From: a virus
Direction: 5' to 3' (one strand)
Virus record (IMG/VR): IMGVR_UViG_3300022208_000009
Span: 1-43,514 of that record
Length of the DNA stretch: 43,514 nucleotides
Positions 1 to 43,514 of this stretch are shown piece after piece. How positions within the stretch are numbered: the first letter of the stretch is position 1; every line of letters begins with the position of its first letter. The notes beneath the pieces are model-generated. The model did no database searches. It saw only the letters and a program-made list of their open reading frames with translations, and had not been told where the DNA came from. A program made the position numbers and the translations under genes.

Positions 1-2
1 CA

Positions 3-221
3 TCATTCTACGGCGGAGGAGGGGGTGGTGGCGGAGCTGCCAGCCTCGGAGGAAATAGCACCTATGGCGGCGGCGGCGGGGGAGCTTCTGGAGGAGGTCT
101 TTCGCTATATGGCGGCGATGGCGGTGTTTCTGCGACAGGCTCGGTGCCTGCTGGTGGGGGTGGCAGCGGCGCTTCTGGGTACGCTGGCGCTCGCGGTGAA
201 GTGCGAGTAACTATTCTGTGA
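3..221 (+). CDS. Glycine-rich tail fibre/tip protein, C-terminal part (continues from 42953)
   Basis: This is the C-terminal 72 codons of a glycine-rich protein whose first 187 codons lie at 42953-43514. The frame is open from the first base: the last base of the window plus bases 1-2 make codon GCA and the frame then runs to a TGA at 219-221. The residues are mostly Gly, Ala and Ser with YGGGG-type runs, ending in ARGEVRVTIL. Glycine-rich C-terminal domains of this kind are usual in adhesive tail fibres, which make host contact. It lies at the end of the tail module and just before the lysis genes. The join is inferred from the reading frame and composition, not from overlapping sequence. 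Confidence 0.85.
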   Translation, partial: SFYGGGGGGGGAASLGGNSTYGGGGGGASGGGLSLYGGDGGVSATGSVPAGGGGSGASGYAGARGEVRVTIL

Positions 222-557: not shown

Positions 558-848
558 ATGTCACAAGTAAAGGAACAACAAGAGCCAAATCGCAGAGTGC
601 ATTGGCATTTGGAAAAAAGCATTTCCGTCGGGCACATCATAACTACCATCACCATCGCTGGGAGCGTGTTTCTCTGGGCGATGAAGATGGATTCCAGAGT
701 ATCCGTGTTGGAAGCCACCAACGCCTATTCGCAGTACAACGCAGAGAAAGCGGAGGCGCGTTGGAGCAACAGCATCAATCGGCTGGAAGCTACGCTTATT
801 CGCATCGAAACGAAACTCGACAACAAGCAAGATAAAGGAGCCAGATAA
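558..848 (+). CDS. Small membrane-anchored coiled-coil protein (holin/antiholin or spanin-like candidate)
   Basis: A 96-residue protein with a good AAGGAG site. It has a polar N-terminus, one hydrophobic helix at about residues 24-42 and a charged, heptad-like C-terminal half (about 48-90) that should form a coiled coil. Its stop overlaps the next start (TAATG at 846-850), which implies translational coupling to the holin-like gene. One-helix plus coiled-coil proteins of this size occur as antiholins and spanin-like proteins in phage lysis cassettes. I cannot decide between these, as there is no lipobox and no cleavable signal. Confidence 0.75.
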   Translation: MSQVKEQQEPNRRVHWHLEKSISVGHIITTITIAGSVFLWAMKMDSRVSVLEATNAYSQYNAEKAEARWSNSINRLEATLIRIETKLDNKQDKGAR

Positions 849-1411
849 TGGTCGCACCAGTCATAGCAGCACTCACACCATTCGTGAAAGGTCTGTTTGC
901 CAACGGACTGAGTTTACTCGGCAACGCGATCCTGTCGAAAGGTAAGGCGGCGGTCGAAGAAAAGCTCGGTATCAAGTTGCCGGATGAGAACGTGCCACCT
1001 ACGCACGAACAACTCATCGAACTGCGGCAGTTGGAATTTGACCACGAAGAAAAGCTGCTGGAGCTGGACATCGAAAAACAAAAACTGGAGCTGGAATCCG
1101 ACAAGCTCGCGGTTGAAAATACTCAAGGCGCTCGCGACATGAACACGCGCATTCAAGAGTCGGCAAACGCGGATCATATCGCTAAAGTGGCAGCGTATTA
1201 TTTGGACTTCCTGGTGGTGGGTGTGACACTCATAGTCGCGATACTGGTTATTTTCGTGGACATGCCAGCGACCAATGAGAAGATTGCATTCATGGCACTC
1301 GGGTCTTTGCTTACCTTGTGCGGAACCATTGTCAACTTTCACCGGGGTACATCGGCCTCATCGAAAGGGAAAGACGAAACCATTCTTCATGCGATGAAGG
1401 GATTGAAATGA
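848..1411 (+). CDS. Holin of the three-helix GTA type
   Basis: A 187-residue protein resembling the 'holin of 3 TMs, gene-transfer-release' family. The N-terminus has an amphipathic/hydrophobic stretch (about 1-35). The middle is a long charged coiled coil (about 55-100). Two hydrophobic helices follow near residues 117-137 and 142-163, with a short basic tail after them. It would form lesions in the inner membrane to release the endolysin at the end of infection. It overlaps the upstream gene by one base and the downstream endolysin by four (ATGA), as in a lysis cassette. Confidence 0.75.
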   Translation: MVAPVIAALTPFVKGLFANGLSLLGNAILSKGKAAVEEKLGIKLPDENVPPTHEQLIELRQLEFDHEEKLLELDIEKQKLELESDKLAVENTQGARDMNTRIQESANADHIAKVAAYYLDFLVVGVTLIVAILVIFVDMPATNEKIAFMALGSLLTLCGTIVNFHRGTSASSKGKDETILHAMKGLK

Positions 1412-1758
1412 TGACTCTCGGCCAACATCAAGAAGCGTTCAGCCGCGACCTGTGCAAGCTCATGCAGCGCGGCTTTGAGCTGGGCTACGAGCTGCGCGGC
1501 GGCGAATGGATGCGCCCGGTAGAGATGCAGACCATATACGTCCAGACAGGCCGCAGCAAGACGATGAACAGCATGCACTTGAAGAAGTGTGCCGTCGATC
1601 TGCACTGGTTCAAGGACGGCAAGCTGTGCCACCCGCAGGAACTCGGTGTGTATTGGGAAAGCCTGTCACCGCAGAATCGCTACGGAGGCAACTTCGACCG
1701 CGACTGGAACAGGGAGGACAGCTTCAAGGATGCGCCGCACTATGAGAGGCTTGCATAA
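1408..1758 (+). CDS. Endolysin, M15-family zinc peptidase
   Basis: A 116-residue enzyme of the VanY/D-Ala-D-Ala carboxypeptidase type used by many phages as an L-Ala-D-Glu endopeptidase endolysin. It shows the zinc-site pattern SMHLKKCAVD (His57, Asp64) and a third ligand in DAPHYER (His111), plus the conserved GGEWMRP region near the front. There is no signal peptide, so release depends on the holin upstream. ATG codons at 1408 and 1411 are both possible; 1408 overlaps the holin stop as ATGA. It is the last gene of the rightward transcription block. Confidence 0.9.
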   Translation: MMTLGQHQEAFSRDLCKLMQRGFELGYELRGGEWMRPVEMQTIYVQTGRSKTMNSMHLKKCAVDLHWFKDGKLCHPQELGVYWESLSPQNRYGGNFDRDWNREDSFKDAPHYERLA

Positions 1759-1817
1759 AATAACATGGTGCAATTGTCGGTAATTTTAGGGTGCGTTTGG
1801 TTTTTCGCATACCAAAT

Positions 1818-1906
1818 AATCAACAACTTGCGCAATGCGCAGCCATATTAGACACCTCGAAGGTGTATTTCATGGCTGTTTTTCGGGGGTACATTATATG
1901 TTCGAC
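1818..1906 (-). other. Candidate terminal attC of the cassette array
   Basis: The right core GTTCGAC (1900-1906) is the exact complement of GTCGAAC at 2104-2110, as expected for the two ends of one cassette. An AATCAAC (1818-1824) could be the distal core, with the 1840-1878 palindrome between. The distal core is weak and off consensus, so the outer limit of the array is uncertain. This may also be a junction with phage sequence. Confidence 0.4.
1840..1883 (+). terminator. Terminator hairpin after the lysis genes
   Basis: CAGCCAT (1840-1846) pairs with ATGGCTG (1872-1878). Between them ACACCT-CGA-AGGTGT (1852-1866) forms a perfect inner stem, and five T follow at 1879-1883 on the + strand. 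This fits an intrinsic terminator for the rightward late transcript. The same palindrome could also be the body of the terminal attC of the leftward cassette array (see 1818-1906), so it may serve both. Confidence 0.6.
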
Positions 1907-2079
1907 CCCTGTTTAATCTTCTGCCGTTCATCTTCCCTGATTGCGCGTGCAATATCGTTGTATCCAGCATTAAGGTAAACAAAACTGAACCATGCCCATA
2001 TAAACCTAGTGAGTGGCCCAGCTCGTTCTATTTTTCCTCGCAAGCGAAATGGCCCTGCAATCTCGAACATAATTACCAT
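1894..2079 (-). CDS. Cassette 1: small membrane-associated protein, unknown
   Basis: A 61-residue product starting at the ATG at 2079, seven bases after a GGAGAAA site. It has one hydrophobic/aromatic segment (about residues 26-41) flanked by basic residues and a charged C-terminal tail. I do not recognise the family. The last codons (SNI, TAA) read into the attC core at 1900-1906. An earlier start is possible but has no ribosome binding site. Confidence 0.65.
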   Translation of the reverse strand: MVIMFEIAGPFRLRGKIERAGPLTRFIWAWFSFVYLNAGYNDIARAIREDERQKIKQGSNI

Positions 2080-2103
2080 ATTTATTTCTCCGATCAAAAA
2101 GTG

Positions 2104-2162
2104 GTCGAACCCTTCATTCCAGCGGGAACGCCTTCGGCGTCCCCTGAATTCCCATGTTAGGC
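2104..2162 (-). other. attC site A (59 bp)
   Basis: Outer cores are GTCGAAC (2104-2110) and GTTAGGC (2156-2162), exactly 59 bp apart end to end. Inside, GGG-a-ACGCC pairs with GGCGT-CCC around a three-base loop, leaving one unpaired A, and CATTC pairs with GAATT-like bases further out. This is the classic short attC architecture. Confidence 0.92.
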
Positions 2163-2378
2163 ATCAAGTTTGCGCCGAGTTTCTTGGCCTGAATCGCTTA
2201 TGAACAGATAGTCCCCATCAGCTTCATAGTCGCTGCGCTCAAGGCGTATGCCATTAGTTTCCTTCGTCGCTTTCATGCCGTGCGCCACCCAATTTGCTAA
2301 TTTATTTTGCGCAATTTGATCTAGTCCACTGCATATAGATTCCCAAGCCTCTTGTGTTATTTCTTCGTCTCTGTGCAT
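2157..2378 (-). CDS. Cassette 2: small acidic protein, unknown
   Basis: A 73-residue acidic protein preceded by a strong GGAGGTAAAGAC leader. No membrane segment or known motif is seen. Its stop codon TAA is part of the attC core GCCTAAC, a common arrangement in integron cassettes where the reading frame ends in the recombination site. The high-coordinate end of the cassette, GCCTAAC at 2393-2399, is the exact complement of GTTAGGC at 2156-2162. Confidence 0.75.
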   Translation of the reverse strand: MHRDEEITQEAWESICSGLDQIAQNKLANWVAHGMKATKETNGIRLERSDYEADGDYLFISDSGQETRRKLDA

Positions 2379-2392
2379 GTCTTTACCTCCAG

Positions 2393-2452
2393 GCCTAACC
2401 CTGCATTCAAGAGGGAAGCGCTGAAGCGCTCCCCTTCATTCAGGCGTTGGGC
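2393..2452 (-). other. attC site B (60 bp)
   Basis: Cores GCCTAAC (2393-2399) and GTTGGGC (2446-2452). The central stem GGG-a-AGCGCT/AGCGCT-CCC has one unpaired base on one arm, as in site A. CATTC and related L-box positions are kept. Confidence 0.92.
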
Positions 2453-2781
2453 GCCTTTGTTGCTGCCCTGTCTAGCCGCTCAATCTCTGCTATCAGCAGT
2501 GCGGCGGCGCGCACAAGATCACGGCGCGGGTTCTTTGGCTTCCACCACTCTTCGGCCCATGAGTCCGGCCAGTCTTCCGGCATCTGGTCTGCCAAGTAGC
2601 GTTTTGCGCCGTCTACGAAGCTCTCCAGCAGCCATGCGCGGCCCACGTAATGCTTCGCGTAGCACGCACCGGCCAGCGCCATGCTGCTGTCGTTGTGCTG
2701 GTCATCGTGCGATTCCGTCCACCCCTCGGCCTCAATCTGCCGCTTACGCTCCGCTACAACATCATTAATCGCTTTGCTCAT
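2440..2781 (-). CDS. Cassette 3: conserved phage protein of the EGW-HDD type
   Basis: A 113-residue protein with the pattern VxxERxRQxEAEGWTxxHDDxH near residues 8-28, followed by an alanine-rich helix, a WPDSWAEEWWKP segment and a closing helix ending LIAEIERLDRA. Proteins with this motif are widespread in phage genomes and also occur next to nucleotide pyrophosphohydrolase domains; no activity can be assigned to it here. The ribosome binding site is AAAGGA. The last codons run through the attC core (APNA, TGA). Both ends carry matching cores, GTTGGGC at 2446 and GCCCAAC at 2811. Confidence 0.85.
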   Translation of the reverse strand: MSKAINDVVAERKRQIEAEGWTESHDDQHNDSSMALAGACYAKHYVGRAWLLESFVDGAKRYLADQMPEDWPDSWAEEWWKPKNPRRDLVRAAALLIAEIERLDRAATKAPNA

Positions 2782-2810
2782 GGCAATCCTTTCTTCGTAG
2801 TTACGACGGC

Positions 2811-2871
2811 GCCCAACCCGTCATGCAAGCGGGACTGCGCTAAAGCGCTCCCCTTAATTGGTATGTTATGC
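2811..2871 (-). other. attC site C (61 bp)
   Basis: Cores GCCCAAC (2811-2817) and GTTATGC (2865-2871, one base off consensus). The central GCGCT-aa-AGCGC stem is framed by GGG and CCC. Its sequence closely follows sites B and J. Confidence 0.88.
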
Positions 2872-2872
2872 G

Positions 2873-3085
2873 TCACGGTATCAGGTAGCATTCTTTATCG
2901 TACAGGTACGTTAATGAGCTGCGCGCTTGGTCGAGTGTTGGGCAAGACAGTTTTATTGTTTCGCCACTCTTCGTTTGCATTTCGTAGGTTTTATGAGGCA
3001 CGTAGTCGCAACCAGAAACGCATAACACGGCGGTCAACAAGGACAGGCCGATAAGTGATTTCTTTCCAAAGTTTATAGTGTTCAT
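2873..3085 (-). CDS. Cassette 4: small lipoprotein
   Basis: A 70-residue protein with a lipoprotein signal: basic start, hydrophobic stretch LIGLSLLTAVL and lipobox CVSGC (modified Cys near residue 26). The mature part is about 45 residues and keeps two further cysteines. It would be anchored to a membrane on the periplasmic side. Possible roles include superinfection exclusion or an Rz1-like lysis role, but it is not proline-rich, so neither is shown. The ribosome binding site is AAAGGAAAA. Its upstream cassette end is not a recognisable core, so it now shares a cassette with the gene at 3137. Confidence 0.78.
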   Translation of the reverse strand: MNTINFGKKSLIGLSLLTAVLCVSGCDYVPHKTYEMQTKSGETIKLSCPTLDQARSSLTYLYDKECYLIP

Positions 3086-3097
3086 CGTTCAGTTTTC

Positions 3098-3142
3098 CTT
3101 TAAAGTTATTTAGTCGGCCTGCCTGTTACCTCGGCGTTAGGC
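3098..3142 (-). other. attC half-site D
   Basis: The core GTTAGGC (3136-3142) is intact and complements GCCTAAC at 3442-3448. The opposite arm is not a recognisable RYYYAAC. A short CGGCCT...AGGCCG pairing is all that remains of the palindrome. It looks like a decayed or partly deleted attC. Confidence 0.6.
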
Positions 3143-3405
3143 CGCTTCGTAGGTCATTTCAAAAATGTCAGGTTTGCATGCGTATCGCTCACCCTTAACT
3201 CCTGTAATGATCCAATCTCCATCCCTGACTAGGTGCGGCCCTTCTAGGGTTTTAATGACAGGATGGAAACCTTTGGGTTCTCCATCTGCCGGAGGGTCTG
3301 TGAAGTATTGAATTTCAATACCATCAGGAAGAGCGCACGTTTCCTCCATTTCTTTGAAAAACTGCACAGCTTCGATTACTACAGGTTTTTACGGTACTTT
3401 GCCAT
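3137..3405 (-). pseudogene. Cassette 5: MAKYRK-type phage protein with a one-base frameshift
   Basis: The natural start is the ATG at 3403-3405 behind GGAGAAAACTAA, which reads MAKYRKNL and then TAG. One base lower, the frame continues VVIEAVQFFKEMEETC and on to the end at 3137. Phage proteins of this family begin MAKYRKKPVVIEAVQF, so a single base, most simply a C in the CC at 3384-3385, has been lost. Without it, only a GTG at 3367 could start the main frame (76 residues), without a good ribosome binding site. The intact family is common in phages and of unknown function. This could be a real mutation, a sequencing error or, less likely, recoding. Confidence 0.8.
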
Positions 3406-3441
3406 TTTAGTTTTCTCCTTCCGCTCTTCGAGGGTAGAGCG

Positions 3442-3506
3442 GCCTAACCCTGCATTCGAGAGCGACGGCGCAAAAGCGCGCAGCGCCTCAATTTGATATG
3501 TTGGGC
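3442..3506 (-). other. attC site E (65 bp)
   Basis: Cores GCCTAAC (3442-3448) and GTTGGGC (3500-3506). The stem is built on GGCGC-aaaa-GCGCG-type pairing with an unpaired base on one arm, and CATTC is conserved. Confidence 0.9.
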
Positions 3507-3507
3507 A

Positions 3508-3639
3508 TCAATGCCGAGTTTCCTTCACCAGCTTAATAAAAAGCGGTATGAAGCCGAAAAGAAACCATCCGTCCCAATGATATGTGTACGTGTAAATCCC
3601 TTTGGTTTTGGTAGTAGTCCACCATCTAAATACAATCAT
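3508..3639 (-). CDS. Cassette 6: 43-residue basic aromatic protein
   Basis: A very small gene filling the whole cassette between cores 3500-3506 and 3665-3671, which are complementary (GTTGGGC/GCCCAAC). It starts at the ATG at 3639 after AAGGAGAAAATC and ends with TGA next to the core. The product is rich in Trp, Tyr and Phe; the segment about 24-37 (WDGWFLFGFIPLFI) is hydrophobic and may insert in a membrane. The function is unknown. Confidence 0.75.
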   Translation of the reverse strand: MIVFRWWTTTKTKGIYTYTYHWDGWFLFGFIPLFIKLVKETRH

Positions 3640-3664
3640 GATTTTCTCCTTGTTCAAACGTTAT

Positions 3665-3756
3665 GCCCAACCCGGCGTTGCAACGAAGCGCGGCCATAAG
3701 TCCGGCGGGTTTTATTCTGTTATTTTTTAGCGCGCTCGCTGAACTAGATGTTGGGC
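3665..3756 (-). other. attC site F (92 bp, long type)
   Basis: Cores GCCCAAC (3665-3671) and GTTGGGC (3750-3756). This is a longer attC with imperfect pairing of GTTGCAACGAAGCGC against the GCGCGCTCGCTGAAC side and a larger loop. Its first 31 bases match the half-site at 4967 at 29 positions, and its other arm resembles 4436-4459. Confidence 0.88.
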
Positions 3757-3757
3757 G

Positions 3758-3940
3758 TCAGATTAACGCCGCGAAGAAGTATCCATCTTCATTCACCTGA
3801 TCCACCATCACTTCTTTCCATTCACCTTCACCGTCTTTTTTTACACGCAGTTTTTCTCCGACTGTCGGTTTCTTTTTCCCAAATACCTTCACCAGCCAAG
3901 GTTGCGTTCCTATTTTGCATGGTCTCAATTCCGTTTTCAT
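3758..3940 (-). CDS. Cassette 7: small lysine-rich protein
   Basis: A 60-residue protein from the ATG at 3940 behind GGAGATAAAA. It is rich in Lys, Glu and Val with a probable small beta-fold (EKLRVKKDGEGEWKEVMVDQV), similar to KOW/SH3-like short proteins, but I do not recognise a family. Its cassette ends are GTTGGGC (3750) and GCCCAAC (3960), an exact match. Confidence 0.75.
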   Translation of the reverse strand: MKTELRPCKIGTQPWLVKVFGKKKPTVGEKLRVKKDGEGEWKEVMVDQVNEDGYFFAALI

Positions 3941-3942
3941 TT

Positions 3943-4167
3943 TTATCTCCAAGTTTCGTGCCCAACCCTTGCGCTTTTCATTCCTCGTTCCATGAACGCA
4001 CTCACTCCACCAATTAGCTTAGCGTGTTTCTTTATAAGCATTTCCCCGCACTTAGCGCAGCGAAAATGGTAATCTACATGCTCAAAATCTTCACCTGCCA
4101 CAACTACCGTCTGTTCTTTTTCAACTTGCAATGCCCAGAACGGGTGCTCGCACTTAAAAGGCCACAT
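3943..4167 (-). CDS. Cassette 8: small zinc-finger-like phage protein
   Basis: A 74-residue protein from the ATG at 4167 after GGAGAACTGAT. It has CEHP near residue 6 and YHFRCAKCGE near residue 38, then KHAKLIGG. This C-x-H plus C-x-x-C pattern is a likely zinc site and is seen in many small phage proteins of unknown function. Its frame runs past the core at 3960-3966 into the leader of the next cassette (C-terminal RVGHETWR), because most of its attC has been lost. Confidence 0.75.
   Translation of the reverse strand: MWPFKCEHPFWALQVEKEQTVVVAGEDFEHVDYHFRCAKCGEMLIKKHAKLIGGVSAFMERGMKSARVGHETWR
3960..3993 (-). other. attC half-site G
   Basis: GCCCAAC (3960-3966) is intact, followed by a short attC arm, but there is no GTTRRRY core on the gene side; GTTCCAT at 3987-3993 is the nearest. 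The upstream gene reads through this site. Confidence 0.55.
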
Positions 4168-4191
4168 ATCAGTTCTCCGTTTAAAGGAGGG

Positions 4192-4253
4192 GCAGAACCC
4201 CTCATTCAACCCGGACGCGCAAAAGCGCGCGCCGGTTAATTCAAATGTTGGGC
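4192..4253 (-). other. attC site H (62 bp)
   Basis: Cores GCAGAAC (4192-4198, one position off RYYYAAC) and GTTGGGC (4247-4253). The stem CCGG-a-CGCGC/GCGCG-CCGG closes on an AAAA loop with one unpaired base, followed by GTTAATTC on the outer arm. Confidence 0.9.
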
Positions 4254-4432
4254 CACTTATTGATGAAGCCAACATTCCATCCTGCATCCTCATGCTTCTT
4301 GCGCTCTTCTAGCGTTGATGCGCGTCCGAATAGGTATCCCCATGCAGCATCTTCGCTTTCAAATGGCCCCCACCCTTCTTTCTGAGGATCACTTTGTAGC
4401 CACCATTCTTTTTTAGGCTGCTCGGTTTTCAT
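4241..4432 (-). CDS. Cassette 9: small Trp-rich protein, unknown
   Basis: A 63-residue protein with WWLQSDPQKEGWGPFESEDAAW near the front and a charged middle. The C-terminal PNI and stop are encoded by the attC. The start ATG overlaps the stop of the next upstream gene (ATGA at 4429-4432) and lacks a strong ribosome binding site, so it is probably translated by coupling. That overlap arose where the attC between the two genes was truncated. Confidence 0.72.
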   Translation of the reverse strand: MKTEQPKKEWWLQSDPQKEGWGPFESEDAAWGYLFGRASTLEERKKHEDAGWNVGFINKWPNI

Positions 4433-4668
4433 TCGCGCTCGCTCAACTTTATGTTCTGTCCCTGCTCAACCTGAGCGAATGGTCTGGCAGGGATCGAGCT
4501 GCCGTCGCAATTTCTACCTTCCATAGCAGCCTTCCACGCCCTTTTAAAGCCAGCTTCGTACACGCGCCTTCTGTCTAAACTATCTATCTGAGGTCGCGCC
4601 GCAAAATACTCGTCCTCTCCCGCAATGCAGTTAGCTTCCATTAGTGCAATATCACGTTCGTTGTCCAT
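4429..4668 (-). CDS. Cassette 10: small helical protein, unknown
   Basis: A 79-residue product from the ATG at 4668 after GGAGAACTGAT, the same leader as cassette 8. It is acidic at the front and has a helix RRRVYEAGFKRAWKAAM typical of many small phage proteins. The C-terminus (QNIKLSERE) is encoded by a truncated attC and its stop overlaps the start of the next gene. The cassette ends are GTTCTGT (4453-4459) and GCAGAAC (4693-4699), matching at six of seven bases. Confidence 0.72.
   Translation of the reverse strand: MDNERDIALMEANCIAGEDEYFAARPQIDSLDRRRVYEAGFKRAWKAAMEGRNCDGSSIPARPFAQVEQGQNIKLSERE
4436..4459 (-). other. attC half-site I
   Basis: The core GTTCTGT (4453-4459) with an adjoining CGCGCTCGCTCAAC arm that resembles the gene-side arm of site F. 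The rest of the attC and the leader of the next cassette are missing, so the two genes now overlap. Confidence 0.6.
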
Positions 4669-4692
4669 ATCAGTTCTCCGGTTAAAGGAGGG

Positions 4693-4756
4693 GCAGAACC
4701 CCTCGTTCTTGCGGGACTGCGCAAAAGCGCGCAGCCCCAAAACTCAAATGTTGGGC
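4693..4756 (-). other. attC site J (64 bp)
   Basis: Cores GCAGAAC (4693-4699) and GTTGGGC (4750-4756). The stem GGG-a-CTGCGC pairs across an AAAA loop with GCGC-CAG-CCC. It is a close relative of site H and shares its outer core. Confidence 0.9.
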
Positions 4757-4953
4757 ACAGCCCTCTGGTGTTTCCCCCAATTTGCAATCTGATCTTCTGT
4801 CATCTCATCCGGGCAATATTCCAGCATCAGAGAGTCGATCTTCGCTTGAAGAGAATCTATCTCTTTCACAGCTTCGCGCAACAGTTGCGGGCCTTCGCGA
4901 TTATTCTGATGTGGTGCAAGTTGTCTCAGGTACTTTTCAATTTTATTTTTCAT
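4744..4953 (-). CDS. Cassette 11: small coiled-coil protein
   Basis: A 69-residue mostly helical protein with a leucine-spaced central helix (LLREAVKEIDSLQAKIDSLM). Many phages carry short proteins of this type; the function is unknown. The start at 4953 follows AAAGGATAGT. It is the first cassette read after the phage operon, and its ends are GTTGGGC (4750) and GCCCAAC (4967), an exact match. Confidence 0.75.
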   Translation of the reverse strand: MKNKIEKYLRQLAPHQNNREGPQLLREAVKEIDSLQAKIDSLMLEYCPDEMTEDQIANWGKHQRAVPNI

Positions 4954-4966
4954 ACTATCCTTTCAT

Positions 4967-4999
4967 GCCCAACCCGGCGTTGCAGCGAAGCACGGCCAA
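4967..4999 (-). other. attC half-site K at the phage-array junction
   Basis: GCCCAAC (4967-4973) and the next 24 bases match the start of site F almost exactly, then similarity stops at the end of the lysozyme-like gene (stop at 5000). This marks the entry junction of the array: either a truncated attC or a cassette inserted at a non-attI site. Confidence 0.7.
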
Positions 5000-5326
5000 T
5001 CACTTCATCTTCCGATAACAAGCCCACCGATTGCCATGCCCGTGGTCTAGACCCCAGTCCAAGAGGAATAACTGGTGTTGTGGACTTGTCCACTTCGGCG
5101 GCCACATCTTCGCCTGTCGCATCTTGCGCTCGGCCTTGGCGGAGAACTCGTAGAACGTCTCCTTGCGGAACTGGGCGATGCCGAACGATTTACCGTCGTC
5201 ACCCCATATATCGTGCTTCAGGCCGGACTCGCATATCATGATGCGCAGTTTAAGATCAGCACTGGCAGCGGATGTGCTTTCCGCTAGGACGAGCAGCAAT
5301 GCCATGCATATCCAGTGCGCCCTCAT
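5000..5326 (-). CDS. Exported lysozyme-like transglycosylase
   Basis: A 108-residue protein with an N-terminal signal peptide (hydrophobic MALLLVLA, then a small-residue cleavage region near residue 20) and a short lysozyme-like fold: MICESGLKHDIWGDDGKSFG followed by IAQF. The Glu in CESG is the expected catalytic acid of soluble lytic transglycosylases. It would act on peptidoglycan in the periplasm, possibly for DNA entry or local wall opening. The start at 5326 is set by ATGA overlap with the small gene upstream. Its stop abuts attC half-site K, so it may once have been part of a cassette. Confidence 0.75.
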   Translation of the reverse strand: MRAHWICMALLLVLAESTSAASADLKLRIMICESGLKHDIWGDDGKSFGIAQFRKETFYEFSAKAERKMRQAKMWPPKWTSPQHQLFLLDWGLDHGHGNRWACYRKMK

Positions 5327-5469
5327 GATAAGCCGCGCACCCATGTAGCCAGCACGATCAACACGCATCCGCCGAACACCATCGCCGCGATAGCGATGTT
5401 GCTCAATTCGGCATCATCATCTGTCCAATCAGAACAAGTTTCATCACGGTTTTGCTTATCGTCATTCAT
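5323..5469 (-). CDS. Small one-helix membrane protein
   Basis: A 48-residue gene starting at the ATG at 5469 after AAGGGGGAATC. The first half is acidic (MNDDKQNRDETCSDW), the second half a single hydrophobic helix (IAIAAMVFGGCVLIVLATW). It overlaps the transglycosylase start by four bases (ATGA), so the two are translated together. A small membrane partner beside a wall hydrolase suggests a regulator of its export or activity, by inference only. Confidence 0.7.
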   Translation of the reverse strand: MNDDKQNRDETCSDWTDDDAELSNIAIAAMVFGGCVLIVLATWVRGLS

Positions 5470-5478
5470 GATTCCCCC

Positions 5479-5778
5479 TTAATCAAGTGAATACCACGTT
5501 ACGGTGACGACCCAATTGCGCCCATATAATACGGGGCTTGAGGCGTGCGGACTGCGCATGTAATCAATGCACTTTGCCGTCGCTGCGGCGCGCTCCATAA
5601 CCAGCTCTTTGAAGACGCCGGAGAATAATTTCTTGAACGTATAACCATCGCTCGGCGGCGTGTATTCATGCACGGTATCGTCAACGTTCGGCGCGTCATC
5701 ACTGTTGCCGAAAATCTGCGCCATGCTCGCGTCAACCATGCTCTTGATGCGTTCAATTTCTTGTCTGCTCATTTTCAT
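5479..5778 (-). CDS. Hypothetical early protein
   Basis: A 99-residue acidic protein behind AGAGGAGAA, with ATG codons at 5778 and 5772 both possible. The N-terminal helix (QEIERIKSMVDASMAQIFG) is followed by an acidic linker and a YTFKKLFSGVFKELVMERAAA helix. I do not recognise it. It is the first gene after the promoter at 5822-5850 and so heads the transcript that continues into the cassette array. Confidence 0.75.
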   Translation of the reverse strand: MKMSRQEIERIKSMVDASMAQIFGNSDDAPNVDDTVHEYTPPSDGYTFKKLFSGVFKELVMERAAATAKCIDYMRSPHASSPVLYGRNWVVTVTWYSLD

Positions 5779-5821
5779 TTCTCCTCTTTCTAGTCAACGG
5801 AAACATTCAGTTGATGGACGA

Positions 5822-5850
5822 ATTATGAACCGCATTTCGTATAAAATCAA
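5822..5850 (-). promoter_or_regulatory. Leftward promoter P1
   Basis: Read on the - strand: TTGATT (5850-5845), 17 bp, CATAAT (5827-5822). A 20-bp stretch covering the -10 and start region (5812-5831) is identical to 21217-21236 at promoter P2. It lies between the nuclease stop and the start of the gene at 5778, and would drive the genes into the cassette array. Confidence 0.8.
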
Positions 5851-5859
5851 CAATTAAAT

Positions 5860-6297
5860 TTATGTGTATCCAAATATCGCCCGACAAACCTTCTCCCAAT
5901 CAGTTGCGTATGCCGGAACGCACCATTCGCACCTATCTTCCAGCATTTTCCGCGAAAGGGTGCCCAATTCACGCGAATATCGCCCATGCACCAGCCACAG
6001 TTCTTTGCCGCATTGACCTAAAATCCAGCAATTAGCCCCCGCCATGCTGCGTTCATACAGCCAAGCCACCTGCTCAGGACGCAAGCCATACGCCCCTTTG
6101 AAGATAGGGGTATCAGCGCGCGCAGGCAATTCTGGGCGATATTTCAGCTCAACAAACGCACAATCCCCAGACAATCGGGAATGCAAAACCAAATCCGGCA
6201 CCCCCTCCCCGACCATATTCTCGATCCGCTGGGCAAACGCAAACGGTTCAACGCCGGGGCGCATCCGCTGCCATAGCCGTGCCTCACCGCCTTTCAT
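5860..6297 (-). CDS. Putative PD-(D/E)XK nuclease
   Basis: A 145-residue protein with the nuclease pattern GEGVPDLVL (Asp near residue 35) then, 14 residues on, FVELKYR (Glu49 and Lys51), the PD...ExK arrangement of VRR-NUC, RecB and Holliday-junction-resolvase folds. The front (ARLWQRMRPGVEPF) resembles phage nucleases that act on replication intermediates. A role in junction resolution or DNA processing is likely. The ribosome binding site is AAGGATACC; it overlaps the upstream gene by 14 bases. Confidence 0.75.
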   Translation of the reverse strand: MKGGEARLWQRMRPGVEPFAFAQRIENMVGEGVPDLVLHSRLSGDCAFVELKYRPELPARADTPIFKGAYGLRPEQVAWLYERSMAGANCWILGQCGKELWLVHGRYSRELGTLSRKMLEDRCEWCVPAYATDWEKVCRAIFGYT

Positions 6298-7198: not shown

Positions 7199-7996
7199 TT
7201 AAAACTCCCCGCTGCGCCCCGAATACTCATCCGCTGGTGCGCCAGCAGCTTGCGGCACTTGCTCCTTGACTTCACCGCTTGATACCGCATCGCGGAAGGC
7301 TTTGGCGGCTTGATACAATTCAGGCGATTCAACCGCGCCTAGCGTCTCGACCTTGAGGCCAAACCAGCTACCCTTGTCGTTGCTTTCCGGCACGGTCGTG
7401 ATGCGGTACTGATGGCTGAACATCGCCGGGGTGTAGTGCGAACCATCGGCGCGCTGCATCTTGATGCCGTTCATTTTGCTCATCCAGTTGCGCGACTTCT
7501 TGATCTGCGAACTTGACAAGCTGATGACTGCCGGTTGATAGCCACCGTCTTTGTCAACGACCAGCACATAATGCGTGCGCGTGTCGGCCAGCAAGTTGCC
7601 TTCTGGGTCATACAGCTTACCATCGGCATCTGCTTTTGCTGCTGCCACAATCGGATCGGAAGGCATCACTTCACCCTTGAACCCTCCGCCGCTGTCGCGC
7701 GGTGCCCATTTGATAAAGCTGCGCTTGAAATAGCAGGGGATGACTGTCACGCCAGCAGCGCCGTCGAAGATTTCCTGCGACACGGAATTATAGAACATGC
7801 CCTCTTCCGCGCCCTTGATATACGCGCCGTCCGACTTCTTACACTGCGGCGACATGCTTTGCAGGATGGACAGGAACGGAATGGCATACGCCGTGCTGTC
7901 CGCGTTTTCGAACCCGCTGCCTGCGTCTTCCTCGAATGCTCCGGCGAGTGCGACGGCTGTGTTTTGTTTTGCTGCGACTTCGTTTTCTTTTTTCAT
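7199..7996 (-). CDS. Conserved phage replication-region protein (possible DNA-binding/recombination factor)
   Basis: A 265-residue protein of a type common in phages beside DNA-processing genes. Recognisable stretches are IPFLSILQSMSPQCKK, GMFYNSVSQEIFDG, GVTVIPCYFKRSFIKWAPR and ISLSSSQIKKSRNW, followed by a low-complexity tail ending in SGRSGEF. The flexible tail ending in a bulky hydrophobic residue recalls single-stranded DNA-binding proteins, but this is inference. The ribosome binding site is TTAAGGAGC. Confidence 0.65.
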   Translation of the reverse strand: MKKENEVAAKQNTAVALAGAFEEDAGSGFENADSTAYAIPFLSILQSMSPQCKKSDGAYIKGAEEGMFYNSVSQEIFDGAAGVTVIPCYFKRSFIKWAPRDSGGGFKGEVMPSDPIVAAAKADADGKLYDPEGNLLADTRTHYVLVVDKDGGYQPAVISLSSSQIKKSRNWMSKMNGIKMQRADGSHYTPAMFSHQYRITTVPESNDKGSWFGLKVETLGAVESPELYQAAKAFRDAVSSGEVKEQVPQAAGAPADEYSGRSGEF

Positions 7997-9760: not shown

Positions 9761-9789
9761 ATTATAATATGCTTTGCGGTTTGGAGCAA
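9761..9789 (-). promoter_or_regulatory. Leftward promoter P4
   Basis: Read on the - strand: TTGCTC (9789-9784), 17 bp, TATAAT (9766-9761), a perfect -10. It fills the gap between the stop at 9797 and the start at 9726. Confidence 0.85.
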
Positions 9790-33238: not shown

Positions 33239-36148
33239 ATGTATATCGTTATGCACTGCGGCGGAATTCCTTTCAATGGCGACACAATAAAAACAAAGTC
33301 GCTTGGAGGGTCGGAGTCGGCTGCCTATTACATGGCACGCGCACTTCAGGATAAAGGGCACAGCGTCATCCTCTTCACGAACTCGGAAGAGACTGGCACG
33401 TTTGATGGCGTGAAATACGAATACGCTGGCGCACCGACAGAACAGCACCCGCTCGGGGAGCGGTTTTCTTTCTACGCGGAGAACACGCCGCACGACATCT
33501 GCATCATCCAGCGCCATCCGCAGGCATTCTCGCGCAAGCTGGCAAGCAAGCAGAATCTGTTATGGCTGCATGACCTTGCGCTGCTGCGCACGAAGGATGC
33601 CATCATTGGGCAGATGTGGAACGTTGACAAGGTGCTGGTAGTCAGCGAATACCACAAGAACCAAGTGCATGACGTATGGGGCATTCCGCTTGATCGTATC
33701 GCGGTGGTGAACAATGCTGTTGACCATACGCTTTATGACATCGTTGAACCTCATGCTTTAACAGAGGGTGTGCGGCACTTGATTTATTCTTCACGCCCCG
33801 AGCGCGGCCTGATTGAGTTGGTCAAGCAAGGCGGCATCATGGAACGCTTGGCAGGCGAACCTATTCATCTGCATGTCTGCGGATACGACAACACTACGCC
33901 GCAGATGAAACAGTTTTATGAGCACCTGTGGAAGCGGTGCGAAGAGCTGCCAAATGTAACGAACCACGGCGCGCTGACGAAGGCGGAACTCGCGGGGCTT
34001 CAACTGGCCTGCGATGCATGGGTGTACCCGACGACCTTCGAGGAGGTGTCCTGCATCACTGCGATGGAAGCGATGGTGGCTGGCCTGCCAGCGATTGTGA
34101 GCGCGGTTGCTGCATTGCCGGAGACGTGCGCTGATAGCGGCACGCTGCTGATCCCGCTACGCGATGGGCAACCCGACATCGCACTGTTCTGTGCTGCGCT
34201 TCTCGAAGATGATTCTCGCGTTTGGGAAAGCTCATCCGCCGCGCAACTCACTGCCGCGCGAAAGTTCACGTGGAAGAATTCCGCGCAGCAATTGCTTGAC
34301 TGCGTGATGAAGACATTCGCGGATGCCGCGATTCCATCATCGCTGGCGCACCATTTCATGCGCCACTCCGACATCAAGCCATTTGAATTGCTGGAGCTGC
34401 ATCACGGCGAATCGAATTTCGTCACGAACATGCGCGATGAATACCGCGAGGGCTACGCATTCTACCGTGACAATGCCTACGCAAAGCACTATGCGGATTA
34501 TTACCAGTATGAAAAAGATCGCGGCGTGAATTATGGCCCGGAAGATGTGACGCGCACCTCGCGCTTCCAAGCTGTTGCGAATATGGTCGCCGAATTGCCA
34601 GAAGGCTCTCGCGTACTGGATTACGGCTGCGCTCATGGCCACTACACGGTGGCATTGGCGAAGCGGTTCCCGAAACTGGCATTCGTCGGTGCAGACCTCG
34701 CGCAGAGCAATATTGATATTGCGCGGAAGTGGGCGGATGATGAAAAGCTGAGTAACGCAACCTTCCTGCACGTGGAGCATGGGGTTGATGATTTGCCGGG
34801 CGAGTATTCCGCTATCATTGCGGCGGAGGTCATTGAGCATGTCGGCAATCCGCAGGCGTATATTGACACCTTGGCTGTGCATCTGAAAGACGGCGGGCGC
34901 ATGGTCATCACCACGCCATACGGACCATGGGAGGCACAAGGCTACCGTGAGCACGGATATTGGCGCGCGCACCTTCATCATTTCGAGCGTGCTGACATCC
35001 TTGAAGCATTCGGCCATCATCCTGATTTCCGTATCATGGCAGCGCCCGCCGGGCAATCCATTTTTGGTTCGCCGCTGGGTAGCTATATCTTCACCTTCAC
35101 GAAGCCGACCGCACCGAGCAACCCGATCAACTATCTCCGCAAGACAATGCTGACGATGCCGGATAATACGGTGTCATGCTGCATGATTGTGAAGAATGCG
35201 GAAGCGGATATTCAGCGTTGCCTGAATTCTGTATTGCCGCACGTTCAGGAAGTGGTCATCGGCGTGGACAAAACCACCACCGACAAAACCCGCGCGATGA
35301 TTACAAGCATCTCATTGAGCAATCCGCTGGTCGCGTTCACCGTATTCGACGCTGAATCGCCACTTGAAATCGGTTTCGCTGAGGCGCGCAACGCCACGTT
35401 AAGCAAAGCATCGTGCGATTGGATACTATGGATTGATGCAGACGAAGTGCTGGTGAATGGAAGCATCATCGTACAGTTTGCCCGCAATTCTATGTATAAC
35501 GCCTTCGCGGTGAAGCAGCATCACCTGAGCCATGATCCGGTTGCCATCATCAAGACCGACTTGCCTTGCCGACTGTTCCGCAATCGCATGGGTATCAAGT
35601 TCTTCGGGATTGTGCATGAGCATCCTGAATTGAAGATGAACGAAGGCCTCGGCCCGGTGATGCTGTTGCCGCGCACAGAGATTGTGCATCATGGTTATCA
35701 TGACGAAGGCGTGCGCCGCAAACGTTTCGACCGTAACCTGCCCTTGCTGACGCGCGACCGCAAAGAAAACCCAACACGCATTCTCGGAAAGTTTCTGTGG
35801 CTACGCGACTTGGCTCAGTCCTGCCAGTATGAAATTGAAGCGGGCAGGGCTGACCCCACAATCATAGAGCAGCGCGCCGCCGAAGGCATTGTGCTGTGGG
35901 AAGAGCTGATGGATGCGAAGAACTACCGCCTTGTGATCGATTCGCTGCCATACTATTCCTTGCTCGCAAAGATTCGCGGCAAAGGCTTTGACTTCTCGTT
36001 CACGCTGGATGCAAACAAGCACGGCACATCACAGGCAGAGAAACAGCCCGTGATCGCCGGATACTTTGACAGCAAGGAGCACGCCCTGCGCCTGCTGACT
36101 GAACTGGCAGAAGACAAGACTGCTACATTTGATCGGAGGTATCAATAA
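33239..36148 (+). CDS. Three-domain GT4-methyltransferase-GT2 fusion
   Basis: A 969-residue enzyme. Part 1 (about 1-380) is a GT-B glycosyltransferase of family 4: LGGSESAAYYMARAL, SSRPERGLIELV and TTFEEVSCITAMEAMVAGLP near residue 266 (EX7E). Part 2 (about 440-630) is a class I methyltransferase: VLDYGCAHGHYTVALA near 458, IIAAEVIEHVGN. Part 3 (about 640-969) is a GT-A glycosyltransferase of family 2: SCCMIVKNAEADIQRCLNSV and WIDADEVL near 731 (DxD). It probably builds or caps a methylated glycan on virion proteins or host sugars. It lies inside the head genes, coupled to the connector gene by TAATG. Confidence 0.9.
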   Translation: MYIVMHCGGIPFNGDTIKTKSLGGSESAAYYMARALQDKGHSVILFTNSEETGTFDGVKYEYAGAPTEQHPLGERFSFYAENTPHDICIIQRHPQAFSRKLASKQNLLWLHDLALLRTKDAIIGQMWNVDKVLVVSEYHKNQVHDVWGIPLDRIAVVNNAVDHTLYDIVEPHALTEGVRHLIYSSRPERGLIELVKQGGIMERLAGEPIHLHVCGYDNTTPQMKQFYEHLWKRCEELPNVTNHGALTKAELAGLQLACDAWVYPTTFEEVSCITAMEAMVAGLPAIVSAVAALPETCADSGTLLIPLRDGQPDIALFCAALLEDDSRVWESSSAAQLTAARKFTWKNSAQQLLDCVMKTFADAAIPSSLAHHFMRHSDIKPFELLELHHGESNFVTNMRDEYREGYAFYRDNAYAKHYADYYQYEKDRGVNYGPEDVTRTSRFQAVANMVAELPEGSRVLDYGCAHGHYTVALAKRFPKLAFVGADLAQSNIDIARKWADDEKLSNATFLHVEHGVDDLPGEYSAIIAAEVIEHVGNPQAYIDTLAVHLKDGGRMVITTPYGPWEAQGYREHGYWRAHLHHFERADILEAFGHHPDFRIMAAPAGQSIFGSPLGSYIFTFTKPTAPSNPINYLRKTMLTMPDNTVSCCMIVKNAEADIQRCLNSVLPHVQEVVIGVDKTTTDKTRAMITSISLSNPLVAFTVFDAESPLEIGFAEARNATLSKASCDWILWIDADEVLVNGSIIVQFARNSMYNAFAVKQHHLSHDPVAIIKTDLPCRLFRNRMGIKFFGIVHEHPELKMNEGLGPVMLLPRTEIVHHGYHDEGVRRKRFDRNLPLLTRDRKENPTRILGKFLWLRDLAQSCQYEIEAGRADPTIIEQRAAEGIVLWEELMDAKNYRLVIDSLPYYSLLAKIRGKGFDFSFTLDANKHGTSQAEKQPVIAGYFDSKEHALRLLTELAEDKTATFDRRYQ

Positions 36149-42768: not shown

Positions 42769-42966
42769 ATGGGAATTAAAAGAACAATCGAATGTGACGT
42801 GTGCGGGGCTATTGCGGAGGAAGCTGCGCCGAACGCTGGATGGCACGGCTGGGGCGCGCTGCATGGCATCACTTTGGATGGCACGGACAACCCTGTTTTG
42901 TGCCCGCCATGCCTCGGCAAAGTTGCCACCTTTATAGACAAGGAGAAGCAGCATGACGTGGACTAA
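42769..42966 (+). CDS. Small zinc-ribbon-like protein
   Basis: A 65-residue protein with ECDVCGAIAEEA near the front and LCPPCLGK near residue 45, two CxxC knuckles that should bind one zinc. The ribosome binding site is AGGAGAAAAAC. It lies between the tail hub and the fibre and overlaps the fibre start by 14 bases. Such proteins may stabilise the tip or assist fibre folding; unproven. Confidence 0.75.
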   Translation: MGIKRTIECDVCGAIAEEAAPNAGWHGWGALHGITLDGTDNPVLCPPCLGKVATFIDKEKQHDVD

Positions 42967-43514
42967 CCTATCTTTTGCATATGGCTCGGTGCTTACGTCT
43001 GCGAAGATGACGCAGTTGTATGATAACCATGCTGCACATTCAGAATCTGGACACCCAAACTATGCGACATTTCGCAAGATATTCACTGCGGGCGGCACAT
43101 GGACAAAGCCCAGCAACGTCGCAGCGAATACGCCCATACTTGTCGAAGTGTGGGGCGGCGGCGGAGGCGGTAGCAGCGGCGGAGGCGGCGGAGGCGGTGC
43201 GTATTCCAGCAAAGTGTTTCTCGCCAGTGAATTGTCCGCGTCAGAAACAGTTACCGTAGGTGGCGGAGGTGCTGCCAGCACTGCTGGCGGCAATTCTTCT
43301 TTTGGCACTAAGGTCACAGCCTTTGGCGGCGGAGGAGGCGCGTCTGGCAGCACTGGCGGGGGCGGTGGCGGAGGAGCACGTGGCGCTGGTGCGAGCGGCT
43401 CTGGTGGCACAGGCGGTACAGGCGGTACAGGGTATGCGGGCACGTCTGGCGCTTCTGGAGTTGTCGGGGTTGGGGATTGTGGTGGCGGTGGCGGGAATAA
43501 CCTCGTCGCTGGAG
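42953..43514 (+). CDS. Glycine-rich tail fibre/tip protein, N-terminal part (continues at 1-221)
   Basis: A fibre-like protein of 260 residues in all; this part encodes the first 187. The N-terminus, FAYGSVLTSAKMTQLYDNHA, joins to the tail and FRKIFTAGGTWTKPSNVAAN then EVWGGGGGG starts the typical glycine-rich domain found in many phage fibres. The frame is open to the last base and continues at base 1 (codon split G/CA), stopping at 221; the combined length, 783 bases, is a multiple of three. This supports a circularly closed genome. Confidence 0.88.
   Translation, partial: MTWTNLSFAYGSVLTSAKMTQLYDNHAAHSESGHPNYATFRKIFTAGGTWTKPSNVAANTPILVEVWGGGGGGSSGGGGGGGAYSSKVFLASELSASETVTVGGGGAASTAGGNSSFGTKVTAFGGGGGASGSTGGGGGGGARGAGASGSGGTGGTGGTGYAGTSGASGVVGVGDCGGGGGNNLVAG

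Follow-up and report, generated by a model that had tools for sequence, protein, structure and literature searches.

The window, the whole 43,514-nucleotide stretch that was analysed, is a 43.5-kb virus record from IMG/VR, and it carries an array of nine integron-type cassettes (1890-4972, minus strand) without an integrase. This array is a CALIN (an attC cluster lacking integrase), and it closes the minus-strand replication block of the phage at its 3' end. We consider it fairly probable that read-through from early phage promoters reaches these promoterless cassettes at the tail of the block, and that a host-integron integrase was the builder of the array. We also lean towards a second proposal, that phage arrays hold a type of attC supplying the next cassette's translation start and about 20 residues (a lipoprotein signal or a soluble lead), with the crossover on a codon boundary, and that recombination at such sites, in arrays under phage promoters, swaps protein fronts together with genes.

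On the minus strand, between roughly 24 and 5 kb of the record, lie genes for a primase, a helicase and a DNA polymerase, together with a match to thymidylate synthase. The plus strand encodes the terminase, portal, protease and tape measure and then, over the joined record ends, small genes leading up to the endolysin (1411-1758). The array is located on the strand of the replication genes, between the 3' end of the minus-strand block and the endolysin, and it is convergent with the lysis genes, which are on the opposite strand together with the structural genes. When positions 42953-43514 are joined to 1-221 (plus strand), they form one in-frame ORF that is glycine-rich and tail-fibre-like. 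Because the record ends join into a single open frame, a complete circular genome cut within this tail-fibre-like gene is possible, and the record may be such a whole genome. In the late block, 33239-36148 (plus strand) encodes a 969-aa protein with glycosyltransferase and methyltransferase matches in separate parts. The cassettes and junctions, from proximal to distal, and the late features that face them are:

4967 to 4998, minus strand: half attC (R' side, family D4) at the proximal edge, 94% identical to the R' half of attC 3665-3756
4744 to 4953, minus strand: cassette 1 ORF, 69 aa
4693 to 4756, minus strand: attC, 80.6 bits
4241 to 4665, minus strand: cassette 2, two ORFs (4429-4665 and 4241-4432)
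4192 to 4253, minus strand: attC, 72.3 bits
3758 to 4167, minus strand: cassette 3, two ORFs (3943-4167 and 3758-3952)
3665 to 3756, minus strand: long attC outside the model-building set, 29.1 bits
3508 to 3639, minus strand: cassette 4 ORF, 43 aa
3442 to 3506, minus strand: attC, 76.4 bits
3137 to 3405, minus strand: cassette 5, phage-type PGDYG-like gene, first ATG out of phase with the main frame
3020 to 3142, minus strand: start-codon attC, R'' GCCTAAC, R' GTTATGC
2873 to 3085, minus strand: cassette 6 ORF, lipoprotein-like, 70 aa, starting within attC 3020-3142
2811 to 2871, minus strand: attC, 72.2 bits, with R'' GCATAAC that complements R' GTTATGC
2440 to 2781, minus strand: cassette 7 ORF, phage protein family (phrog_6628 and others)
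2393 to 2452, minus strand: attC, 65.8 bits
2157 to 2378, minus strand: cassette 8 ORF, 73 aa
2104 to 2162, minus strand: attC, 58.9 bits, followed by CACTTTTT
1890 to 2079, minus strand: cassette 9, ORF 1894-2079 and a lone R'' box GGTCGAAC at 1890-1897 (distal half site)
1839 to 1881, plus strand: intrinsic terminator of the late (lysis) side, -19.6 kcal/mol, then TTTTT
1411 to 1758, plus strand: endolysin, last gene of the convergent late block

Seven minus-strand attC sites are detected by a covariance model (R2) with scores of 29-81 bits; six of them went into building the model, while the seventh, the long site (3665-3756), is independent of it. The structure of the model was set by hand, the automatic structure having been out of register, and the stem is supported by covariation. 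One further long attC, at 3020-3142, lies beyond these seven. The R' and R'' boxes show 4 mismatches within the nine cassettes vs 11 over the eight junctions (permutation p=0.0007). A box match within cassettes and not across junctions is the mark of integrase-type assembly at R', and this mode of assembly, as well as the location and strand of the array and the lack of an integrase in the record, can be read directly from the sequence. As in other CALINs, at least two attC with a stem and R'/R'' boxes occur within a few kb, no integron integrase stands beside the array, and the box match argues that the cassettes would have been joined by site-specific recombination at R'. The picture is not that of a complete integron: a search for Phage_integrase (PF00589) finds no tyrosine recombinase in the whole record, and the proximal edge is a half attC (attI and Pc were considered without dedicated models). 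The integrase that built the array would have come from elsewhere, most likely from a host integron. An Rfam search returns no match, nor does the long attC pattern against bacterial genomes, and no attC is found in the phage's relatives identified through gene 7199-7996, for which most loci were searched.

Both edges of the array are half attC sites (4967-4998; lone R'' 1890-1897). The sequence-only reading had called the array an exchangeable tail of a phage operon; given the half sites at both edges, "exchangeable" is true of the inner junctions only, with an integrase supplied from elsewhere. The half sites also suggest capture by breakage, and together with the frame break in cassette 5 and the majority of cassette proteins that have no known function they speak for silent cargo, that is, an array taken up with a host segment and left unexpressed. 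We regard this as unlikely, however, as most of the ORFs are intact with ribosome sites, two cassettes (5 and 7) hold phage-type genes, and about 3 kb of idle DNA would be costly in a 43.5-kb genome.

The cassette leaders, from crossover to start codon, are about 20-45 nt long and contain a Shine-Dalgarno sequence. A leader with a GAGGGGTTCTGCCCCTC hairpin is common to cassettes 2 and 3 (4192-4140 and 4693-4640, minus strand) and to a cassette of the phage contig G008 (41061-41144), and the leaders with this hairpin use the non-standard R' box GTTCTGC. In cassette 5 (3367-3405, minus strand) the first ATG gives MAKYRKNL and then a stop, and the conserved phage-type frame begins out of phase; the break is either a true frameshift or a sequencing error within an A-run.

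What, then, reads the array? The relevant features upstream of it are:

9761 to 9789, minus strand: stronger sigma70-like site upstream of P1, TTGCTC-17-TATAAT, from the weight-matrix scan
5822 to 5850, minus strand: P1, sigma70-like, TTGATT-17-CATAAT, 9 of 12 consensus positions, plausible and not significant alone
5479 to 5778, minus strand: first gene downstream of P1 (phage gene 1), 99 aa; searches find no relative
5326 to 5469, minus strand: phage ORF 2, 47 aa, one likely membrane span as judged from sequence
5000 to 5326, minus strand: phage gene 3, with a signal peptide and a weak Phage_lysozyme2 match

P1 is present as the sequence-only reading had described it (TTGATT-17-CATAAT at 5850..5822, minus strand), and downstream of it come three phage genes (minus-strand ORFs 5479-5778, 5326-5469 and 5000-5326) and then the array. 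The claim that it is the only strong promoter pointing into the array fails, because the site at 9789..9761 scores higher on the same strand with no strong terminator between, and several equal or stronger sites upstream rule out P1 as a unique promoter. The gap that holds P1 is 81 nt long and AT-rich (5779-5859), and the P1 score is reached in 13% of shuffles of this gap (p=0.13). A consensus scan finds 6 sites in 9 kb vs 7.6 in shuffles, using a sigma70 consensus that may not be the host's, and in the weight-matrix scan P1 is 7th on the minus strand. Sites scoring at least 10, on the other hand, occur in 5 of the 11 intergenic gaps of the minus block vs 0.9 expected (0 of 400 shuffles). Since the gap promoters are enriched as a set, P1 is a fair candidate within it, and most members of the set are probably real. 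Relatives offer no comparison for the conservation of P1: gene 5479-5778 has no relative, and the loci L001-L003 carry other genes after their homologue of 5860-6297.

The cassettes could also be transcribed from promoters of their own, since cassette-borne promoters are on record (PMC8876359, PMC11014356) and sites scoring above 8 are located at 4966-4940, 3940-3912 and 3657-3629. Promoter-like sites inside the array are, however, no more numerous than in shuffles, the best of them scores below the shuffle mean, and the leaders are too short for a promoter; transcription from such sites is in our view very improbable.

A fold scan of the minus strand from 7100 to 1700 reveals no strong intrinsic terminator, which bears out the earlier statement that none is visible between the three phage genes and the cassettes. 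The attC hairpins (-17 to -34 kcal/mol) have no U-tracts except at 2104-2162, where the attC and the following CACTTTTT are a possible weak terminator ahead of the last cassette; according to PMC8876359, attC sites do not terminate transcription. The lysis-side terminator that was thought to bound the far end of the array is real (1839-1881), but it serves the plus-strand late genes and offers no U-tract on the minus strand. The nearest strong minus-strand terminator seen is far upstream of the array, at 19841-19819 (10 pairs, then TTTTT), with a promoter-like site (19815-19786) directly after it. This terminator and the adjoining site indicate that the replication block comprises at least two transcription units.

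The array is thus downstream of the replication genes, on the same strand, with no intervening strong terminator. Layout, strand, short leaders and the lack of strong terminators all fit the tail of an operon, but P1 is one of several candidates for its promoter. We infer that read-through is the simplest and best reading of the array's expression. RNA polymerase would start at early phage promoters (P1 and/or 9761-9789), and transcription would continue past the final phage genes to take in the cassettes as the operon's tail. Both the early promoters as the source of the transcript and its timing are predictions from the layout, with "early" taken from the strand of the replication genes. Each cassette would be translated from its own ribosome site, except cassette 6, for which the loop and the 3' arm of the upstream attC would supply the ribosome site, the ATG and the signal peptide.

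The last phage genes ahead of the array allow a different timing. Gene 3, with its signal peptide and weak lysozyme match, and ORF 2, which resembles a membrane peptide, could form a separate lysis-helper unit (a membrane peptide and a secreted lysozyme-like protein) opened by P1, in which case the array RNA would be late and not early. Against this, everything from gene 3 to the replication genes is on one strand with no strong terminator. Moreover, in a search of 50,697 phage records gene 3 has a single close relative, an unannotated ORF of MW202573.1 (34051-34335, plus strand, 52% identical), and this ORF sits in an operon opposing the late genes. We give the lysis-helper unit only a small chance, and read-through from early promoters stays our preferred reading.

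MW202573 (Myoviridae sp. ctTUS972) is the only phage that shares the last gene before the array, and it has the same layout as the 43.5-kb record. It is one of the phage CALINs already reported by Qi et al. 2023 (PMC9892861). As in the present record, its attC array lacks an integrase, its small cassette genes share one strand, and the array closes an operon that opposes the late genes; there it is convergent with a peptidase M15. MW202573 differs in being another phage, P22-like. Further attC-bearing phage contigs, found by pattern scans, model searches and annotation, are nearly all devoid of a tyrosine recombinase, and the attC likeness among them is partly selected, as the contigs were found with attC patterns. 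Several of them have a gene for replication or recombination inside or next to the array, on the array's strand: a primase and a helicase in G004, DnaB in G008, a RecE-like gene in G010, DnaC in G011 and G013, an exonuclease in G017 and an O-like gene in G001. A general placement of phage arrays at the tails of early operons is nonetheless not borne out. For 23 clusters in 16 phage records, the large gene upstream points the same way as the array in 11 of the 17 cases where it is visible, and 13 of 20 arrays oppose the late strand, a tendency that is not significant by either count. G008 contains 22 attC in three clusters (562-5909, 40396-52098 and 54654-55567), the middle one enclosing a DnaB-like helicase and a DNA methyltransferase.

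We now consider the attC at 3020-3142. Its stem is formed by GGTAACAGGCAGGCCGA with TCGGCCTGTCCTTGTTGACC and has three extrahelical bases; its loop contains the Shine-Dalgarno sequence and the start codon (ATG) from which ORF 2873-3085 begins, and the 3' arm encodes part of a signal peptide, in frame via R' into cassette 6. The site, which we call a start-codon attC, hence carries the start codon and the first ~20 aa of the next cassette's protein. A truncated attC at the junction 3090-3145 is ruled out by the copies in other phages, which are of the long start-codon type. Three pairs show compensatory changes among the six closest copies, and 16 of 17 pairs vary on both sides in an alignment of 32 sites that was fitted to the model and also takes in shorter attC. 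Model R3 detects further sites of about 110 nt, of which 19 were examined, from nine records, with leads of the lipoprotein type or soluble. Copies include:

L099:5186-5295 and L099:2220-2329
L101:1297-1407 and L101:2397-2506
L104:1423-1533
L149:7890-8000
L154:1846-1956
L088:1833-1942

The crossover, between G and TT, falls at a codon boundary in 18 of these 19 sites, by a rule that is lenient at sites with two ATGs, and in about 15-16 of the 19 the frame stays open for at least 45 codons. The binomial probability of this phase (3e-8) makes the case look stronger than it is, since these are related sites and one of the other frames is closed by GTTAG. The stem, the loop with Shine-Dalgarno and ATG, the crossover on the codon boundary and the open downstream frame are all present, and the existence of the start-codon attC and its phase are established at the sequence level.

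In a cleaner test, the inner R' perfectly complements an R'' box close to the stop of the ORF in 9 of 17 sites, and the R'' of its own attC in 0 of 16. As the inner R' pairs with the box at the end of the ORF and not with its own R'', the body of the protein comes from the downstream cassette and its start from the upstream one. The L101 copy at 3515 (minus strand) is followed by an unrelated downstream cassette, and its fused frame stops after six codons, an expected outcome if cassettes exchange. Box complementarity gives indirect support to a possible recombination by IntI at the inner R', and translation would start from the loop of the attC. Because the crossover coincides with a codon boundary, insertion of any cassette in matching phase would give a working fusion, and with the start codon and first residues at the junction, a cassette swap would exchange protein fronts too.

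Searches of phages and plasmids with the start-codon attC pattern return none, and among bacterial genomes the pattern is found in one MAG contig only. At 2032-2145 (minus strand), L153, a contig binned as Candidatus Nitrosotalea, has the same lipoprotein start but no 5' attC arm; the signal-peptide arm may have originated there, or L153 may be a phage contig that was misbinned.

How does the array compare with known systems? It shares with class 1 and chromosomal integrons the attC with extrahelical bases, the R'/R'' boxes and the promoterless cassettes. Those integrons have IntI, attI and Pc, none of which is seen in the record, and an external phage promoter would replace Pc. ORF-11 in attI1 and short ORFs inside attC (PMC8876359) likewise place a translation start in a recombination site to the benefit of the next cassette; there the ORF ends and the ribosome restarts, whereas the cassette 6 ORF crosses the crossover in frame as an N-terminus. 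In fused cassettes such as blaGES-1/aacA4 (PMC4670013) coding units are also joined over a cassette boundary, but most of the attC is lost and the fusion moves as one, while here the stem and both boxes are kept. Phage CALINs are already known, and the portion of PMC9892861 used here describes neither their transcription nor a start-codon attC. The start-codon attC is a type that we propose; it has no description in the literature searched, whose coverage leaves out most subscription journals.

Integron cassettes are regarded as separate genes that depend on Pc, and attC hairpins hinder ribosomes. If phage operons stand in for Pc, a phage has no need to keep an integrase in order to use host cassettes. 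The start-codon attC, if true, would show one route by which ribosomes get beyond these hairpins to translate downstream cassettes; and if an attC carries a start codon in fixed phase, integrons can shuffle protein N-termini.
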